Source: a virus. From it: a stretch of 23,653 bases of DNA. This document shows, one piece after another, positions 12,468 to 23,653 of this stretch; position 1 is the stretch's first letter; every line of letters starts with the position of its first letter. The stretch covers positions 1-23,653 of the IMG/VR virus record IMGVR_UViG_3300021961_000639; one strand, written 5' to 3'. The notes under the pieces are model-generated. The model was not told where the DNA came from and did not search any database. It worked only from the letters and a program-made list of their open reading frames with translations. The translations under genes were made by a program, and so were the position numbers.

Positions 12468-13169
12468 TTAAGTGCGCCCAAGCTCTCGTTTTACTTTCAA
12501 AATCGCCTCCCCCTCGGTCTCTAGCGTCTGCGGGATAATCTTGCTCTCAAAGGCTTTCAGCTCTTTTTGATACTGCTCGCGCTTTTGCAGATACTCTTTT
12601 TTTCTTAAAGTGTGGTCGTGCATTATCCTGATTCCGTACGCCCAGCCGGAGCGCTCGTGGTTTACGTATTTTCCAATTGCGTCGCTCTTTTTTGCAATCA
12701 AATAGTGTGCACGCCGATATTCCAGCTCTCTAGGATGCAGCGCCAGGCGTGGCATAAATCGAAACCAGTCTTTCTTTTCGTGGTCCGCAACAGGGACTCT
12801 GTAGAGCAGTTTGGTGGGAGTCGTCTTGTTGTTTAGCCACCAGAAAAAGGTCGTCAAGTCGCCTTCCAGCCATTCGTCGCTGTCTATTATCAGCAAATAG
12901 TCGCAGTCGCAGATGTTAAAGTAAATCTGGCGCTTTTGAAACTCTGGCAGGTCTGGCGCGTCTAGCAGAACGGTGTTTGAAAAAGACTGCACGAGCTCTC
13001 TGCTTCCGTCATTGGACAGCGCGGTTTCGCCATCAAAGCCTGCGTACCTGCCGTCAATGCAAAAGACCCTGTCAAACCTTGCAAGCGTGGGAAGACATCG
13101 CTTTAACTCCTCGTAAGCATTGTAAAACACAAGCCCCCCTGCTATCGTGCACGTGCGTGCGCCTATCAT
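12468..13169 (-). CDS. GT-A fold glycosyltransferase (family 2-like)
   Basis: A 233-residue protein. ATG at 13169 is chosen because it starts just before the first strand (TCTIAGGLVFYNAYEELKRC); a TTG at 13193 would add eight residues encoded by a hairpin. RVFCIDGRYAGFDG gives the second strand, FQKRQIYFNICDCDYLLIID the segment before the metal-binding D-S-D (Asp96, Asp98; LLIIDSDEWLEGD). HDHTLRKKEYLQKREQYQKE forms the C-terminal helix. GT-A enzymes move sugars from nucleotide donors to acceptors. It directly follows the fibre gene and has its own motif (13201-13208), so modification of the Ser/Thr-rich fibre or other virion proteins is a reasonable idea; DNA or host glycan substrates remain possible. 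Confidence 0.75.
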   Translation of the reverse strand: MIGARTCTIAGGLVFYNAYEELKRCLPTLARFDRVFCIDGRYAGFDGETALSNDGSRELVQSFSNTVLLDAPDLPEFQKRQIYFNICDCDYLLIIDSDEWLEGDLTTFFWWLNNKTTPTKLLYRVPVADHEKKDWFRFMPRLALHPRELEYRRAHYLIAKKSDAIGKYVNHERSGWAYGIRIMHDHTLRKKEYLQKREQYQKELKAFESKIIPQTLETEGEAILKVKRELGRT

Positions 13170-13171
13170 AA

Positions 13172-13194
13172 TTTGCCGAAAAAACTTCGGCAAA
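13172..13194 (-). promoter_or_regulatory. 9-bp perfect hairpin in the glycosyltransferase leader
   Basis: On the minus strand TTTGCCGAA, loop GTTTT, then TTCGGCAAA: a perfect 9-bp stem ending three bases before the ATG at 13169. It is not followed by a T-run in the minus direction, so an intrinsic terminator is unlikely. In the leader it could hide the start codon or protect the mRNA end. Confidence 0.5.
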
Positions 13195-13200
13195 ACTATT

Positions 13201-13208
13201 GGGAACTA
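13201..13208 (-). promoter_or_regulatory. octamer motif TAGTTCCC (unit C)
   Basis: Core TAGTTC intact, one mismatch to TAGTTCTC at the seventh base. Its first three bases are the TAG stop of the fibre gene (13208-13206). It lies 31 nt before the glycosyltransferase ATG at 13169. Confidence 0.55.
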
Positions 13209-15362
13209 TAGGAGGTCAATCAAATCCAGTATCTGCAGCACTTCCAAGGGCTCTTGCGAGATGTAATCCACCGGCGCAGTGACTTTTACCTTTATCCTGT
13301 CGCTGCGCGTAGGCACGCTGACTATAAAGCGCTCTTTTCTTGATATCTGAGAGATTGCTGGAATGCGCGTGTATCCATGCAGTCTCAGCGCCTTTGGCTT
13401 TTCGCCCTCTACCCTAAGAACGCTATTTAAGCCACTGATTTTGCCAAGTATCGGCACTTGAACAAGGTACTTTAAAGATATTCTCGCAGTCACACGTAGT
13501 TTTACAAGCTCCCGAGCCTTGATTTCAGTGTAAATGCGTCTGCGCCTTGTTTCTCCTCCACCAAAAGCCTGTTTCGACTCTGTAACAGGGGGCGCTTCTG
13601 CCTCAAGTATTGCGTCGGCAGAGAAAGTGACTGCCGCAGTCTTTTTCAGAAGGGCGTCCGCTGAAAAGGTGCTTGAAAAGCTCTTTTTCAAGAGCGCGTC
13701 AGTGGAAAAGCTCTTTGTCAGAGTCTTTTTTACAAACGCGTCAGCTAGGAAGCTCTTGCTTTGGGTCTTTTTCAAAAATGCATCCGCAGCAAAGCTCTTT
13801 GTTTGGGTCTTTCTGAGCACGGCATCGCTCGTAAAGCCCTTTGTGAAGGTCTTTTTGAGATACGCGTCTGCCGTGAAGCTCTTTGTCTGGCTTTTCTTTA
13901 GAAAAGCGTCCGCTGAAAACGTCTTTGTAAGGCTTTTTTTCAGCAGCGCATCAAGCGTAAACGTCTTTAGTTTTGTTGCGACAAGTATAGAGTCTGCTGT
14001 CCAGGTCTTGCTCAGCGTCTTTTTCAGGTACGCGTCGCTCGTAAAGGTCTTGGTAAGTGCCTTCTTCAGCCATCCGTCGACTGTAAAGGTCTTGCTTGTG
14101 ACTTTTTTTAGGATGGCATCGGCGCTGAACGTCTTTGTCTTTGTCTGCTTTAGAAGCGCGTCAACGGTAAAGCTCTTGGTTGTTTGGTCGCCCTCTCTTA
14201 GAATGATAGAAACAGACTTCCAGGTGATAGAGCCCGACGTGTTGGGGCAGACCGTCTGGTAGTTTATCTTGTCCGTTGCAGCGACGTTGACAGTGTTAGA
14301 CGTATCAGAGAAAAGACCAGTTGCTCCAGCCGCTATGGAGACTCCAATGCCGCTATCTGCGCTGTTTATCCTGAACTTTAGGGTGGTCGCAGACGTAGCA
14401 ATGGAATTGGCGCTAACGTACACGTCCAAGTCACTGAACTTGTACGCGTTTTGCACCTTGTACTGAAAGTTAGCCTCCGTGGTGGAGAGAGTAAAAAGAC
14501 CGCCAACCGGCTCGTAGTTTGTGCTGTTAAAGTTTTGAGTGAACGCGCTGTGGTTTACCGCGCAGATGGCCTTGTTGTTTGAGGTTTCAAATTCTCCCTT
14601 TATCCAAGCCGTGTTGATGTTGCCAGTACCAGTGCTCGTCGTTAGTGACCAGTTGAAATTATCTCCTGAGGCTATGGTGTCGGTGTTTGACGTGTCCTCC
14701 TGCAGTCCAGTGGCTCCAGAGCCATAAGTGACAGAAAATGCGCCATCGGCACCGTTGACGCGGCTCTTGAAAGTGCTGTTTGTAGTGCGCGCATTGGAGC
14801 CCACAAAGACTGCAAAGTTTTTCATCACTCCAGCCGTGCGTATCTTCATCTGAGCCTCGACTTCTGTGGTCACCCACGCGCCTCTCGTGGGGTGGCCGTA
14901 CACGGTGGAGGAGGCTGTTCCAAAAGTTACGTCGTAACCCCAGACTGGCATGGACGTTGTTTTTGTCGTGCTGGTTGGATCTGACTGCAGCCCTAGCGTA
15001 TTTGAGGTAATGCTAGTGCCGGTCGCCCCCGTAATTATTTTCCAGTTTACGTCGTCGCCCGCTGCGATGGACACAGAGTTTGAGGTGTCCTCAAAGACGC
15101 CGGTCGAGCTTGCACCGACGGATATGACGATAGAGGTGTCTGCGCCATTTTTGCGCAGGGTCCAAGTCGATGCGGCTGTTACGGTGTTTGTCTGAACGAA
15201 AATCTGTGCGTTTCTAAGAGTCGTTGCGTGACGTACGCGTATCTTGCGGTTGGCCTCTGTGCTGGTGTTTGTTCGCTGGCTGTTTCCAACGCCCATGTAC
15301 GTGGTCGTAGCAGCGTTTATGGTAGTATTCTGCCCTTGTACCCAGAGAAGCGAGTTTCCCAA
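13206..15362 (-). CDS. repeat-containing virion fibre / adhesin
   Basis: A 718-residue protein. The only usable start is TTG at 15362 (an in-frame TGA lies three codons upstream). Residues 1-390 hold three related beta-sandwich domains about 130 residues apart; each has the segment N-G/S-A-D...GA.TG...DTSN....A..D..N (residues 70-109, 201-240, 331-370). Residues 395-589 are fourteen copies of a 14-residue repeat, consensus TKTFSADALLKKTL. Residues 590-718 are basic and beta-rich (RRRRIYTEIKARELVKLRVT), ending in the hydrophobic VLQILDLIDLL. This reads as head or tip domains on a repetitive shaft with an anchoring end. It is encoded in the head cluster after portal, so a capsid or neck fibre is as likely as a tail fibre. 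Family not identified. Confidence 0.75.
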   Translation of the reverse strand: MGNSLLWVQGQNTTINAATTTYMGVGNSQRTNTSTEANRKIRVRHATTLRNAQIFVQTNTVTAASTWTLRKNGADTSIVISVGASSTGVFEDTSNSVSIAAGDDVNWKIITGATGTSITSNTLGLQSDPTSTTKTTSMPVWGYDVTFGTASSTVYGHPTRGAWVTTEVEAQMKIRTAGVMKNFAVFVGSNARTTNSTFKSRVNGADGAFSVTYGSGATGLQEDTSNTDTIASGDNFNWSLTTSTGTGNINTAWIKGEFETSNNKAICAVNHSAFTQNFNSTNYEPVGGLFTLSTTEANFQYKVQNAYKFSDLDVYVSANSIATSATTLKFRINSADSGIGVSIAAGATGLFSDTSNTVNVAATDKINYQTVCPNTSGSITWKSVSIILREGDQTTKSFTVDALLKQTKTKTFSADAILKKVTSKTFTVDGWLKKALTKTFTSDAYLKKTLSKTWTADSILVATKLKTFTLDALLKKSLTKTFSADAFLKKSQTKSFTADAYLKKTFTKGFTSDAVLRKTQTKSFAADAFLKKTQSKSFLADAFVKKTLTKSFSTDALLKKSFSSTFSADALLKKTAAVTFSADAILEAEAPPVTESKQAFGGGETRRRRIYTEIKARELVKLRVTARISLKYLVQVPILGKISGLNSVLRVEGEKPKALRLHGYTRIPAISQISRKERFIVSVPTRSDRIKVKVTAPVDYISQEPLEVLQILDLIDLL
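13596..14180 (-). repeat. fourteen tandem 42-bp coding repeats (14-residue units)
   Basis: Within the fibre gene, residues 395-589 repeat every 14 residues as [TS]K[TS]F[TS]xDAxLKKxx. Phe4, Asp7, Ala8, Leu10 and Lys11 are the most constant positions; the fifth copy (SKTWTADSILVATK) and the last (AVTFSADAILEAE) diverge most. Copies differ at the DNA level, so the array is old or under protein selection rather than freshly expanded. Confidence 0.9.
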
Positions 15363-18739: not shown

Positions 18740-18742
18740 CTA
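18735..18742 (-). promoter_or_regulatory. octamer motif TAGTTCTT (unit B)
   Basis: Core TAGTTC intact, last base differs. The TAG is also the stop of the terminase nuclease gene (18742-18740). Followed by AT-rich CAAAATTTAATTTCC. The nearest ATG (18696) is 38 nt away but the portal start is 217 nt away, so a transcript from here would have a long leader. Confidence 0.5.
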
Positions 18743-19426
18743 TCTTGGCATCCTTACGACCCAGCTCCTGCTTTCAATTCCCCTCAAGCGTGGCGCCACG
18801 CCCGTCCCCAAAAGGTCGCCTGTCCCCTTGTCACCATAGGTGTATTTCTTGTTGGCTACGGTGACATGCCTTTTTCTATCTCGCATGTACACGCGAGCCT
18901 TGAAGCAGGCAAGCATGAGCGCCATTACAAGGTCGTCATGTTCGGAGCCCTCTGCGTAATAGGAGATGTTGCCGCTCTCTGTTCTGTGCTCTGCAAATAT
19001 CGACAGCTGTCGTTTCAACTCATCCAATTCAGAATTGGTTGATATAGGAAACACGAGGCGCTCGTCGGCAAACCACTCCAGCATCAGTTTTACCATCGCG
19101 TTTTTGTCCATCGTCTTTTCGCCGGCTTGTTTTTTGAGATCTTTGATGTCCTTGCTCGTGGTGACTGGAAAGGCAGGGAGGTTGTGCTTGTACTTTAGAA
19201 CCTCGTACACGTGCGCGCCCACGCTATTAATCTCCACCATTAGAAACTGAAAGGGGTGAAGCCTATGGATTCTGGCTATTTCATTTTCCACGTCGATGTA
19301 ATTGCGCCCTAGCCAGCGCTTTGCGTTTAAAATTTTCACCACGCCATCCTCGACATGCACGCCCACAAGCGCGCTAGAGTCACGGCTTTTACCGCTGTCG
19401 AGACCTGCTATTCTAACTGCTGTCAT
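18740..19426 (-). CDS. large terminase, nuclease part (RNase H fold)
   Basis: A 228-residue protein from ATG at 19426, which begins exactly before the first strand (MTAVRIAGLDSGKSRDSSAL). A longer frame from ATG 19486 would add 20 residues of no clear fold. The RNase H-type acidic set is visible: Asp10 in AGLDSG, Glu65 in FLMVEINSVGAHV, and Asp164/Asp165 in GSEHDDLVMALMLACFKA. These bind two metal ions and cut concatemeric DNA at the start and end of headfilling. In most tailed viruses this domain is fused behind the ATPase; here it is a separate gene after a gap of about 100 nt. Its TAG stop is part of motif 18735-18742. Confidence 0.82.
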   Translation of the reverse strand: MTAVRIAGLDSGKSRDSSALVGVHVEDGVVKILNAKRWLGRNYIDVENEIARIHRLHPFQFLMVEINSVGAHVYEVLKYKHNLPAFPVTTSKDIKDLKKQAGEKTMDKNAMVKLMLEWFADERLVFPISTNSELDELKRQLSIFAEHRTESGNISYYAEGSEHDDLVMALMLACFKARVYMRDRKRHVTVANKKYTYGDKGTGDLLGTGVAPRLRGIESRSWVVRMPR

Positions 19427-19517
19427 CTTTCCATCTCTCTTTATATCCGAGGGAACTTGGGCATTCGTTGTTAGAACAGCATTCATTCATTCGGAGAAAG
19501 TTGCAGATGGGGCACAT
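19413..19517 (-). CDS. possible 34-residue Cys-rich microprotein between the terminase halves
   Basis: ATG at 19517, eight bases after the ATPase stop, to TAG at 19413, overlapping the nuclease start by 14 bases. It encodes MCPICNFLRMNECCSNNECP then SSLGYKERWKDDSS. Five Cys residues (2, 5, 13, 14, 19) form CxxC and CC/C groups that could bind zinc. It fills the gap between the two terminase genes. Its shortness makes coding status uncertain, but the Cys spacing is not what random sequence usually gives. Confidence 0.42.
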   Translation of the reverse strand: MCPICNFLRMNECCSNNECPSSLGYKERWKDDSS

Positions 19518-19525
19518 GTCATAGG

Positions 19526-20446
19526 CTACCATGCTTCCACCTCATGCGCGCCCTCTGGGAATTCAGAGCCAAAGATTGAACCCCTTCCCGTGGTGTACTG
19601 GTTAAGATACTCTTGCGCCACGTCAACAGTCTTGTCTGCCAGCATCGCCAGAATCTCCTCACGCGTGTACAGGTTGCCTTCTGTCGCCCAGATGTTGTAC
19701 TTGAAAAACTGCCACTCTTGCTCGTCGTGCTCTTGCTCTATCTCGTAGTGAAAGCCTCTGGGACCCTTTGGCGTCGATAAGAGAAAGAGGTCGCTCCTGT
19801 TGGTCTTGACGATTGGCATTACAGAGTTCAGCACCGGCCTGTCATCAATCAGGTCCCACTTGGCCGCCTCGTCCATGATAAATGCCACAATCTTTGTGTC
19901 GCCAGTGGCGGCCTCTGGGTTCGCCGGCAGACCTTCGTACGATGTGCCGTTGGCAAGCTGCAGTTTAAGGTCATGCTGCGACTCTTGCTTGTCTACCAGC
20001 TTGGGGTAAGCCTTGAAGAGCTCCTTTAGGCGCTGCATCAGCTTTTTCGTTGCTGCGCTTCTTGTGCCTGCGATAATCTTGACCTGCTTGCCTGCGTATT
20101 TGTTAAATGCCCTGTAAGCCACGATGCGGAGCATGAGCTCAGAAAAGCCCATCTGCCTGCCCTTGTTCAGATGAAACTTGTGCAGGCTCGCGCTATCGAT
20201 GGCCTCAAAGAATTCTAGCTGATACGGGGTAAGCTCGTGAGGCTCGTACGTGCGAGGGTGAACTGGAAGCCCAACGGCTTTGTTAAACTCTGTAAAAGAT
20301 AACTTGGAAAAGCGCTCCGTTATTGCCTCTGCAGTTTCGCCTTCTATGTCCTGTAGCTGCCGCTGGAGCTCGCTCACGTAGAGCTGCGATGCGTCTATTT
20401 TCCCTTCAAGAATGGGGTAAATCGATGGCGCTCTGCCCAACTTCAT
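19526..20446 (-). CDS. large terminase, ATPase part
   Basis: A 306-residue protein, ATG at 20446, overlapping the small terminase by 41 bases. Residues 60-92 (YEPHELTPYQLEFFEAI) are the usual adenine-binding Q-motif region; LNKGRQMGFSELM (93-105) is the terminase Walker A with the K/R-rich, GxS form; IVAFIMDEAAKW (186-197) is Walker B with Asp192 and catalytic Glu193; FLLSTPKGPRG (221-231) is the coupling motif. The frame ends at residue 306 in GSEFPEGAHEVEAW, just where a standard large terminase would go on into its nuclease domain. It drives DNA into the procapsid through the portal. Confidence 0.87.
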   Translation of the reverse strand: MKLGRAPSIYPILEGKIDASQLYVSELQRQLQDIEGETAEAITERFSKLSFTEFNKAVGLPVHPRTYEPHELTPYQLEFFEAIDSASLHKFHLNKGRQMGFSELMLRIVAYRAFNKYAGKQVKIIAGTRSAATKKLMQRLKELFKAYPKLVDKQESQHDLKLQLANGTSYEGLPANPEAATGDTKIVAFIMDEAAKWDLIDDRPVLNSVMPIVKTNRSDLFLLSTPKGPRGFHYEIEQEHDEQEWQFFKYNIWATEGNLYTREEILAMLADKTVDVAQEYLNQYTTGRGSIFGSEFPEGAHEVEAW

Positions 20447-20843
20447 TTTCCACGTGCGCTCCTAGCGCTCTGGCCTCTGCGTCTCTGATTGCAACCTCCC
20501 TCGTGGCTTCGTAGTATGCAGAAAGGTAAGGCTGGATGGAGGCGATTTTTTCCAAGATGCAGGCTTTTTTGAATGCGCCCTGCTCGAGGTGGTAGTTTTT
20601 CCACAGCTCCTGCTGGATTAGTTCAAGCTGGTCAATTCGCTCTATGTGCTGGTTTACAAAGCCCTGCTTCGCAATCTCGTAGAGCCGCTTTAGTTTGGTG
20701 GCTTCAATCGTGCCCTTTATTCTGTAAAAAGTGGCTCTGCTGATGTCGATGCCGTGAGCCTTTAGGTACGCTAGCGCCTGCTCTTCCTTTAGGCGCATGA
20801 CCATGCAGTTTATGACTAATCTTTCAGTATCGTTAAGCGGCAA
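20406..20843 (-). CDS. small terminase subunit
   Basis: A 145-residue helical protein starting with TTG at 20843. Residues 7-48 (ERLVINCMVMRLKEEQALAY, then GIDISRATFYRIKGTIE) form a helix-turn-helix, the DNA-binding part of small terminases; residues 60-125 are coiled-coil-like (NQHIERIDQLELIQQELWKN) for ring assembly. It overlaps the large terminase ATPase gene, the normal pairing. It would recognise the packaging site. It is preceded by motif 20880-20887, 36 nt upstream, so it probably heads the first late unit. Confidence 0.78.
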   Translation of the reverse strand: MPLNDTERLVINCMVMRLKEEQALAYLKAHGIDISRATFYRIKGTIEATKLKRLYEIAKQGFVNQHIERIDQLELIQQELWKNYHLEQGAFKKACILEKIASIQPYLSAYYEATREVAIRDAEARALGAHVENEVGQSAIDLPHS

Positions 20844-21504: not shown

Positions 21505-21798
21505 TCAAGCGCTCCTGTCTCCTTTCTCGTCGCATTGCGCGCACATCCATCCACCGTAGGGATATGGCTTGCCGTTTTCCTTCCGCTCTTCAGGGCTGTC
21601 AAGGTCTGGGACTCGATTGATAAACTTGCCCGAACCCCACGCTACGCTCTCTCCACATTGACAACATATTTCTTGCTCTCTCTCGTCTATCATTGAAAAA
21701 GTATTCTTGCAACCTTTACAAAAGCATTTCACTGTGTCCCCAAACACATATGCAATCTTTTCTGAGGCACATATGGGGCACTTGCTGCGGCAGCTCAT
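21505..21798 (-). CDS. zinc-ribbon protein with four CxxC-type knuckles
   Basis: A 97-residue protein, ATG at 21798, overlapping the acetyltransferase stop as ATGA. It has CPICASEK (Cys7/Cys10), CFCKGC (25-30), ICCQCGES (45-48) and MCAQCDE (85-89): enough ligands for two zinc sites. The first half (SKCPICASEKIAYVFGDTVK) is a classic TFIIS/rubredoxin-like ribbon. Such proteins bind nucleic acid or partner proteins. It is translationally coupled to the acetyltransferase gene, so a joint role is possible. Confidence 0.7.
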   Translation of the reverse strand: MSCRSKCPICASEKIAYVFGDTVKCFCKGCKNTFSMIDEREQEICCQCGESVAWGSGKFINRVPDLDSPEERKENGKPYPYGGWMCAQCDEKGDRSA

Positions 21799-22391
21799 TT
21801 TGCCGCTATAAAGAGTGCATACCCATATCGCATGATAGGTGACTTTAAGCGCCTTTGCATCGCCGCCTTCTCCGTAGGCTTTGGATACATATCCTGCTGT
21901 GGCAGCTCCTTCTCCACCTTGAAGTAATAGGCATAGCTCTTTGGGAGAAAGTTAGAGTAGTACATCATGGTACCCATCATCTCCACAAAGCGTGTGCCAG
22001 CCTTTCTCCATGTGTTCTCTATAAGATAGCTTGCAGCACCTATCCCTCTCAACGATGGATGAATCACAATCCTGCTAACGTATGTTATCCACTTGTTTAC
22101 AAACGAATAGCGCTCACTCCTGTTTTTTACACGTTTAAGCGCAGCTCCTAATGGCGTTTTGTTTCTTGCAGTTATCTCAAGACTAGGCGCAGAGTAAACT
22201 ATGGCCCCATAAAGTATGCCAGTTGCTTTGTGAAATAGCCCAAAGACCTTGCGCACGACTGAGGGCAATTCTACGTTAACATAATGAAACTGCGAGAGCT
22301 TGTAATACCAGTGCTTTTGCACCTCTCTAATTTCAAACTCTTGCTCTAGAAAATCATAGTTGTTTAGTGGTTTGTTTGGTCCCTCTGCCAC
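21795..22391 (-). CDS. GNAT acetyltransferase, COG2401/Mom-like
   Basis: GTG at 22391 gives 198 residues and overlaps the ASCH gene by 38 bases; an ATG at 22451 would overlap it by 98. Domain order: HWYYKLSQFHYVN (27-39), VFGLFHKATGILYGAIVYSA (strands), VSRIVIHPSLRGIGAASYLI (105-124), the acyl-CoA-binding loop, then FVEMMGTMMYYSNFLPKSYA (135-154), matching the vE..a.M...npFf..aGm stretch of the acetyltransferase half of COG2401 proteins. Phage Mu Mom, which hypermodifies adenine in DNA, belongs to the same superfamily. In COG2401 this domain is fused behind an ABC ATPase; here the ATPase is two genes upstream in the same operon. Substrate unknown: DNA base, tRNA or protein. Confidence 0.75.
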   Translation of the reverse strand: MAEGPNKPLNNYDFLEQEFEIREVQKHWYYKLSQFHYVNVELPSVVRKVFGLFHKATGILYGAIVYSAPSLEITARNKTPLGAALKRVKNRSERYSFVNKWITYVSRIVIHPSLRGIGAASYLIENTWRKAGTRFVEMMGTMMYYSNFLPKSYAYYFKVEKELPQQDMYPKPTEKAAMQRRLKSPIMRYGYALFIAAK

Positions 22392-22737
22392 GAAAAGTTT
22401 CCACGTCACGGTAAAGCGAGTGCAGCGGCTTCCATCTATAGAGAAGTTCATCAGAGTGGTCTGTGGCCGAGAACTGTGGTAAGGGCTTGACGCTTTTGAT
22501 GTGCCATGCGTGTGTCGCCTTGTAAATCCGCCCACTTGGAGCCAGCTGCAATGCTATGGCTTTAGGAAGCTGCAAGCTCCTATCGAATTGCACGATGCCG
22601 CGCACACGACCAGCATTTAGAAGGTAAACGTCGCAGTTGAGAAAGTCATCAGGGCAGGCATAGGCTCTAAACTCCCACTCTTTCTTTCCCTCTAGTATCT
22701 GCGTGATAAAGGGCTCTCTGATTGTTATGCCGTTCAC
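22354..22737 (-). CDS. ASCH-domain protein
   Basis: A 127-residue protein starting with GTG at 22737, overlapping the ATPase stop as GTGA. The front MNGITIREPFITQILEGKKE, then WEFRAY and NCDVYLLNAGRVRGIVQFD is the ASCH signature (I.i..Pf...Il.GkK..E.R..........v...GrI.G...). ASCH domains have a PUA-like fold, bind RNA or modified nucleosides, and some members are N4-acetylcytidine amidohydrolases. Placed between an ABC ATPase and an acetyltransferase with overlapping ends, it probably supplies nucleic-acid recognition for the pair. The C-terminal 30 residues are unstructured and basic. Confidence 0.78.
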   Translation of the reverse strand: MNGITIREPFITQILEGKKEWEFRAYACPDDFLNCDVYLLNAGRVRGIVQFDRSLQLPKAIALQLAPSGRIYKATHAWHIKSVKPLPQFSATDHSDELLYRWKPLHSLYRDVETFRGRGTKQTTKQL

Positions 22738-23408
22738 TTTTGCGCTGCCTCACTAACTTGTACTTTGGCATCAAATTCTTTAAAGAGCGTATAATCTGCC
22801 TTTAGGTGCTCCCTAAGATCCTCATGAGCAGATGCAAGGAAAAACGTTATGCCATACTGGTCTCTTATTCTGCGCATGTTAATGGCAATGGCCTTGGCCG
22901 TGATTCTGTCAAGCGTGCTGCAAAACTCGTCAAATATGAGATAGCAGTCTTCAACTCCAGACTCTTTTCGCTCTCTCTGCAGCTTCATTACGCAGTAATA
23001 GAGGCAAAAGCGAAACTTCTCCCCGTCCGATAATTGCGTGTATCTGGAGACAAACTTCCATGCCTCACCAAGCCCGCACTTTGAGAGCAGTTTCAACTTC
23101 TCTTCGCTTGTGACCTCGGGAAAGTATTCTATCAGCGGCAAGTCTTGCAACGCCAGCTCAGTCCACTTGCGCACGTACATCACTTTTTTGCCCTGCTTGA
23201 CAAGCTCCTCGTAAACAGCGTTTAGAATTGAAGACTTGCCGGAGCCAGAATAGCCGCATATGTAATAGAGTTTGCCGGCCACTATTGGCAGCTCCAAATC
23301 CGTTACAATCTCTCTCTCCTTTTCGCTTGTAAGACCAAAGCTCTCTATGATTTTCTTTGTGTTTGCAGTGTTGTCAAAGCGCTGCTTGTAACTAATGCTG
23401 ACCTTCAT
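22734..23408 (-). CDS. ABC-type ATPase, COG2401-like
   Basis: A 224-residue protein from ATG at 23408 (TTG at 23417 adds three residues). Walker A is GYSGSGKSS (52-60); the ABC signature is LSDGEKFRF (126-134); Walker B is CYLIFDEFCSTLDR (155-168) with Asp160 and Glu161; the switch His is His195 in ASAHEDL. The forms LSDGEKFRF, DEFCSTLDRITAKA and ASAHEDL match the ATPase of COG2401 (usually lSdGqrfRy, DEFca.LDr.tA, ATsHeDL). There are no membrane segments, so it is not a transporter subunit but a soluble, probably nucleic-acid-linked ATPase. COG2401 normally carries its GNAT domain in the same chain; here it is a separate gene. Confidence 0.85.
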   Translation of the reverse strand: MKVSISYKQRFDNTANTKKIIESFGLTSEKEREIVTDLELPIVAGKLYYICGYSGSGKSSILNAVYEELVKQGKKVMYVRKWTELALQDLPLIEYFPEVTSEEKLKLLSKCGLGEAWKFVSRYTQLSDGEKFRFCLYYCVMKLQRERKESGVEDCYLIFDEFCSTLDRITAKAIAINMRRIRDQYGITFFLASAHEDLREHLKADYTLFKEFDAKVQVSEAAQK

Positions 23409-23653
23409 TTGCCCCAAGCCTCCTCATGTTCTCTTCGTGCCTAAAGTATCGCGCAAGGGAGATTAGCGCCTCCTCTTTTTGCTCTTCCAAGTCTTTTAGA
23501 GTAGAGAGCACAAAATCATAATCCTCCATTTTTTCAAACTCAAAGGAAAGGATGTATTTTTTTAGAGTCTCTTTAATCTCCAGCTCTATGGGCTCCTTTA
23601 TGCCCATGTTAACTTCAATGGCCTTTCTTAGAGCCTGCTCGTCCTCTGCAATC
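23392..23653 (-). CDS. small helical protein, partial at 5' end
   Basis: The frame is open to the window edge (IAEDEQALRKAIEVN before the internal ATG at 23607), so the gene probably begins outside; ATG 23607 would give 71 residues. Visible parts are KEPIELEIKETLKKYILSFE, EDYDFVLSTLKDLEEQKEEA and SLARYFRHEENMRRLGANE: long charged helices. It overlaps the ABC ATPase start by 17 bases and is probably co-translated with it. Function unknown. Confidence 0.6.
   Translation of the reverse strand, partial: IAEDEQALRKAIEVNMGIKEPIELEIKETLKKYILSFEFEKMEDYDFVLSTLKDLEEQKEEALISLARYFRHEENMRRLGANEGQH

Follow-up and report, generated by a model that had tools for sequence, protein, structure and literature searches.

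A ParB, ABC ATPase, ASCH and GNAT gene cassette upstream of the terminase genes of a probable archaeal virus, a predicted DNA-modification system

The right end of a 23.7-kb IMG/VR virus record carries, on the minus strand, an operon of ParB-like, ABC ATPase, ASCH and GNAT acyltransferase genes that lies upstream of the terminase genes. The whole record of 23,653 nucleotides is referred to below as the window. The cassette is predicted to be a late-expressed viral DNA-modification system that most likely adds an acyl-type group to the bases of viral DNA, a reading given a probability of slightly over one half. Iyer et al. (2021; PMC7824862) have already predicted that GNAT and ABC ATPase, when coupled, produce an acyl-modified DNA base of uncharacterised type, with phage pT24 as the example, and have credited the prediction to Iyer et al. 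(2013; gkt573). Bell et al. (2020; PMC7641849) have described (PIN)-GNAT-EVE operons with ASCH, for which DNA-base acetylation was proposed by Iyer. The general idea, which was also the main proposal of an earlier note on this DNA, is therefore not new, and the window cassette belongs, with one part added, to a kind of system that has been predicted before and is uncharacterised. As far as the accessible literature shows, what is new is the archaeal-virus ASCH variant, the regular presence of ParB in the split forms, the fixed place before the terminase and the structural similarity of the GNAT model to the solved Mom. The domains of the cassette are not mentioned in the MetaGPA paper.

The four overlapping reading frames described in the earlier note, for the ABC, ASCH, GNAT and zinc-ribbon proteins, are all present on the minus strand. 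The gene for a soluble ABC ATPase of 224 aa (22734–23408) has a GTGA in common with the ASCH (PUA-like) gene (22354–22737), and the gene for a GNAT acyltransferase of predicted Mom-like fold (21795–22391) has an ATGA in common with the zinc-ribbon gene (21505–21798). The 38-nt overlap given for ASCH and GNAT corresponds to a GNAT start at GTG 22391, with GTG 22409 as the alternative. The GNAT reading frame is open upstream to 22535, and one of these two starts is likely because residues 1–50 of the GNAT model are disordered and the conserved domain begins near residue 55. The note had omitted ParB, the most regular extra partner. An ORF at 23392–23652 (minus strand), cut by the contig end, encodes the C-terminal part (86 aa) of a ParB-like protein. 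It matches the ParB C-terminus of a relative, L096, with 33% identity and 67% positives over 49 aa (E 7e-6), and overlaps the ABC gene (ATG at 23408) by 17 nt, as the L096 gene does; the operon thus has at least one more gene.

The note had called for a search for the same gene order elsewhere, and this order was found in L096, a 247-kb contig of the Nitrososphaera sp. MAG bin14, where a provirus-like locus reads ParB-ABC-ASCH-GNAT-TerS-TerL as in the window. Identity between the two is 47% for the ABC ATPase, 44% for the ASCH protein, about 50% (48–52%) for the GNAT and 61% for the terminase small subunit-like gene (20406–20843, minus strand), whose counterpart lies between GNAT and TerL in L096 and whose TerS role is suggested by its position. 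The order, the identities and the shared 17-nt overlap point to a Nitrososphaerota host and to ParB-ABC-ASCH-GNAT as the cassette, and the virus probably infects soil ammonia-oxidising archaea. Among the 70 Nitrososphaera-family genomes covered, the cassette is rare (1/70). In contrast to the window, L096 is without the zinc ribbon, TerS following straight after GNAT. The zinc-ribbon protein, recognised from CxxC motifs in its translation, has no Pfam match, and its inclusion in the system by the note could not be upheld since none occurs between GNAT and TerS in L096; it probably stands outside the conserved cassette. A search of seven archaeal genomes, run without a positive control, found no relatives of the zinc ribbon as a Com-like partner. 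The terminase large subunit of the window, which is part of the syntenic context (18740–20446, minus strand), is interrupted by two in-frame stops that separate an ATPase ORF from a nuclease ORF of the same frame, whereas TerL of L096 is one intact ORF. The split could be a sequencing error, decay or a true split.

The pairing of the ABC ATPase with the GNAT is nearly constant. Locus content was scored with HMMs built from the cassette, and the GNAT adjoins or is fused to the ABC ATPase in 230 of 235 fetched loci, a set chosen for similarity to the ABC or GNAT protein and containing some redundancy. This is a very strong answer to the co-occurrence check that the note had set, and it supports the ABC ATPase and the Mom-like GNAT as a functional unit. 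A further 224 loci came from scanning viral and genome collections, and reduction of redundancy at 65% identity left 67 representatives, namely the window and 66 others (43 split, 36 of these with ParB, and 23 fused). The gene set, recurring in hundreds of other loci, is not due to chance. Matches to the window ABC protein were found by tblastn in 63 phage records; single-sequence scans of the viral contig collection with the ABC, GNAT and ASCH proteins gave no matches, and alignments were needed. The cassette occurs in phages of proteobacteria, actinobacteria, firmicutes and bacteroidetes and at loci in planctomycete and archaeal genomes. Annotated phage records show the order ParB-ParB-ABC-small gene(s)-GNAT, followed in several by terminase and portal genes, and others have a fused ABC-GNAT gene. 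In three sets of loci, 47/77, 47/79 and 63/64 have TerL on the same strand and no more than 4.5 kb downstream. Many planctomycete contigs (L097–L174) have the cassette, frequently in the order ABC-GNAT-ParB with TerS-like and TerL genes after it, which suggests a large group of unstudied proviruses.

The ABC protein matches Pfam ABC_tran (E 4e-7) and has intact Walker A (GYSGSGKS), signature (LSDGE), Walker B (YLIFDE), D-loop (STLD) and H-loop (SAHED) motifs, with no membrane or coiled-coil part in its 224 residues. It is homologous to the ABC ATPase of phage pT24 (LC168164/NC_049383; 30% identity, E 3e-10 by tblastn), and in both the window and L096 it is coupled to a GNAT in the same operon, as in the system of Iyer et al. 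Compared with that system, so far as the 2021 paper describes it, the window has separate genes with an ASCH gene between them, a ParB gene and an archaeal host.

ParB was found within 4.5 kb in 160 of the 175 split loci and is mostly absent from fused ABC-GNAT loci (3/55). Within 4.5 kb of the ABC gene there were 289 ParB matches, against 1 in the remaining 571 kb. The N-terminal domain, whose window counterpart lies beyond the contig end, is assigned in the L096 orthologue by matches to PHROG_498 (E 1.5e-23) and parB_part (E 1e-6). By the same PHROG_498 match and by PADLOC MTase_II (E 4e-16), it closely resembles the N-terminal part of phage proteins in which ParB is fused to a DNA methyltransferase. 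In Microbacterium phage Pickles13 (L240, 2469–3621) a ParB-like gene overlaps a Mom homologue, a ParB-GNAT pairing without the ABC ATPase. The ParB proteins of SSU5 are annotated as partition proteins, and this annotation, together with the regularity of ParB and the fixed place before TerS-TerL, would also suit an aid to genome segregation or packaging in which ParB and the ABC ATPase form a small partition or condensation device and the GNAT is regulatory. Such a role is considered unlikely: an SMC coiled coil would not fit into so short an ABC protein, the constant partner is the GNAT and not ParB, which most fused forms lack, and the cassette is also present in a T4-like Straboviridae phage (L013).

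The GNAT protein is weak in Pfam (E 0.07) and matches PHROG_886 (E 1e-6). In this family and in several records (e.g., SSU5, L002 4892–5782) the GNAT is labelled 'ABC transporter ATP-binding subunit', an annotation that looks wrong. The predicted model has a clear GNAT fold, with pLDDT above 80 across residues 61–210. Its best Foldseek match in the PDB is Mu Mom (8bv8; E 1.7e-6, the next family at 1.5e-5), and a Mom also ranks first in a viral library (5e-8). Below it are large phage proteins annotated as endonucleases, including one of phage PA5oct, in which Mom-nuclease fusions are said to occur (PMC7824862). With VIA-align, Mom (Z 11.7 over 155 residues at 4.8 A) is tied with ordinary GNATs (11.6), including RimI and Ard1. 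The invariant residues of the family are H84, Y85, R124, R155, R163, E185 and M190, and His84-Tyr85, which comes after the first helix and is invariant in 41 family members, pairs in a profile alignment with the invariant HY of seven Mom proteins. Sequence similarity to Mom is weak (hhalign of the family against the seven Mom proteins, probability 25%, E 8e-4). Unlike Mom, the family keeps the RGxG acyl-CoA motif, and ordinary acyl-CoA use would be expected from it. Mom also differs in having no ABC ATPase partner.

The ASCH protein, weak in Pfam (E 0.23), was identified through its L096 relative, a profile match to ZmASCH (E 2e-5), which is the closest solved ASCH by profile, and a fold search (VIA-align) in which ASCH structures fill the top rows with Z 6–8, the confidence of the model being modest (pLDDT 66). 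Among the fetched loci an ASCH gene near the cassette was found only in the window, L096 and Streptococcus phage MismyG, and helix-turn-helix and sigma-like families predominated when 120 neighbours were tallied by Pfam, with no ASCH among the 25 families listed. MismyG resembles the window in having ParB, ABC, GNAT and ASCH beside the terminase; it differs in its order (ParB-ABC-GNAT-ASCH, then terminase), where GNAT precedes ASCH, and belongs to another branch of the tree. The operons described by Bell et al. likewise have a GNAT with a PUA/ASCH protein and a proposed base acetylation, but as described (PMC7641849) they are without ABC ATPase or ParB and are often near host defence genes.

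A YqfB-like ac4C amidohydrolase, which would act as an eraser of an N4-acyl mark, was considered for the ASCH protein and rejected. Thr24 is the nucleophile in the GxKxxTxR motif of YqfB and T24A kills activity; in the window motif GKKEWEFR, aligned by eye, Glu takes the place of this essential Thr, which makes the activity unlikely. ZmASCH has been reported as a ribonuclease with the RNA-cleavage residues Tyr47 and Lys53. By eye these are only partly kept (Tyr and Arg in the window, Leu and Gln in L096), and for this reason no nuclease function is claimed for the window protein.

The reported activity of ZmASCH bears on a second alternative, the acylation of RNA or tRNA, in which the GNAT and the ATPase would act on cytidine as TmcA and NAT10 do, with ASCH binding RNA. 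The tRNA(Met) (TmcA) and NAT10 cytidine acetyltransferases are among the PDB Foldseek matches of the GNAT model. A further point in favour is that TmcA-type enzymes also combine a GNAT with a P-loop ATPase. The ABC ATPase is not of TmcA's helicase type, however, ASCH is present in only three loci, and the linkage to ParB and terminase points to DNA, so that an RNA substrate appears improbable. Host takeover through acylation of a host protein such as RNA polymerase or a ribosomal protein would agree with the tie to the protein N-acetyltransferases RimI and Ard1 and with the phage GNAT Rac, which acetylates RNA polymerase (PMC7824862), but it has an equally poor prospect, because neither a DNA-binding ParB nor an ABC ATPase would be needed, the invariant HY and the best Foldseek match point to Mom, and the hosts are as different as Nitrososphaera, Planctomycetes and proteobacteria.

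Modification of DNA bases is favoured by the ABC/GNAT pairing, the proximity of ParB, the Mom fold match and the shared HY, the likeness of ParB to methyltransferase fusions, the ParB-Mom overlap in Pickles13, the published prediction and the linkage to TerL. Against it stand the tie of Mom with ordinary GNATs in Z, the weak Mom profile match, the retained RGxG, the selection of partly redundant loci by similarity and the scarcity of ParB in fused forms. Acyl modification of nucleic acid, as put forward in the earlier note, is the best reading and a predicted one, while the descent from COG2401, the zinc ribbon as part of the system and the novelty of the idea were not supported. Under the DNA-modification reading, the GNAT would take an acyl group from an acyl-CoA and attach it to the amino group of a base in viral DNA, like Mom with its own donor. 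The ABC ATPase may form an ATP-switched dimer or clamp that delivers or distorts the DNA and thereby gives the GNAT access to the base, the ParB-like protein may serve as a DNA-binding or NTP-dependent loading factor, and ASCH may recognise the target or the modified base. The place before the terminase fits late expression, as with Mu mom, which is a C-dependent late gene (PMC4461284), and would mean that the cassette is expressed early enough for progeny DNA to be marked before it is packaged, with protection from host nucleases as the expected result. More tentatively, and with the odds somewhat against it, ParB, ABC, ASCH and GNAT may together be a four-part ATP-driven machine that writes an undescribed acyl mark on DNA bases in viruses of ammonia-oxidising archaea and, without ASCH, in tailed viruses at large, with expression coupled to packaging. 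The usual annotations in this widespread cassette are 'ABC transporter' and 'partition protein'. If a new DNA base is written, the cassette would be among the commoner uncharacterised anti-restriction systems, and cultured phages with the cassette, such as SSU5 and Nican01, make the question directly testable.

The note had also described the genes as a three-gene version of COG2401, whose proteins are single chains with ABC and acetyltransferase domains. The composition agrees, the two domains being the same and the fused relatives in Bathyarchaeota and other archaeal contigs being homologous to the window, whereas the window genes are separate. In a tree of ABC and GNAT sequences the window groups with L096 on a deep branch (support 0.998). 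This branch lies outside a clade of 41 tips (support 1.0) to which the archaeal fused proteins and the proteobacterial split ones belong, and fused and split forms alternate in the tree. The window genes therefore did not arise by splitting of the archaeal fused form, and the suggested descent is not supported.

Two further genes of the window, both on the minus strand, were noted. The 241-aa protein encoded at 12468–13193 has no Pfam match and by eye resembles a small glycosyltransferase (LIIDSDEWLEG). The gene at 13206–15362 encodes a virion-like protein of 718 aa in which a short repeat of the type KTFTADAxLKK occurs about a dozen times.
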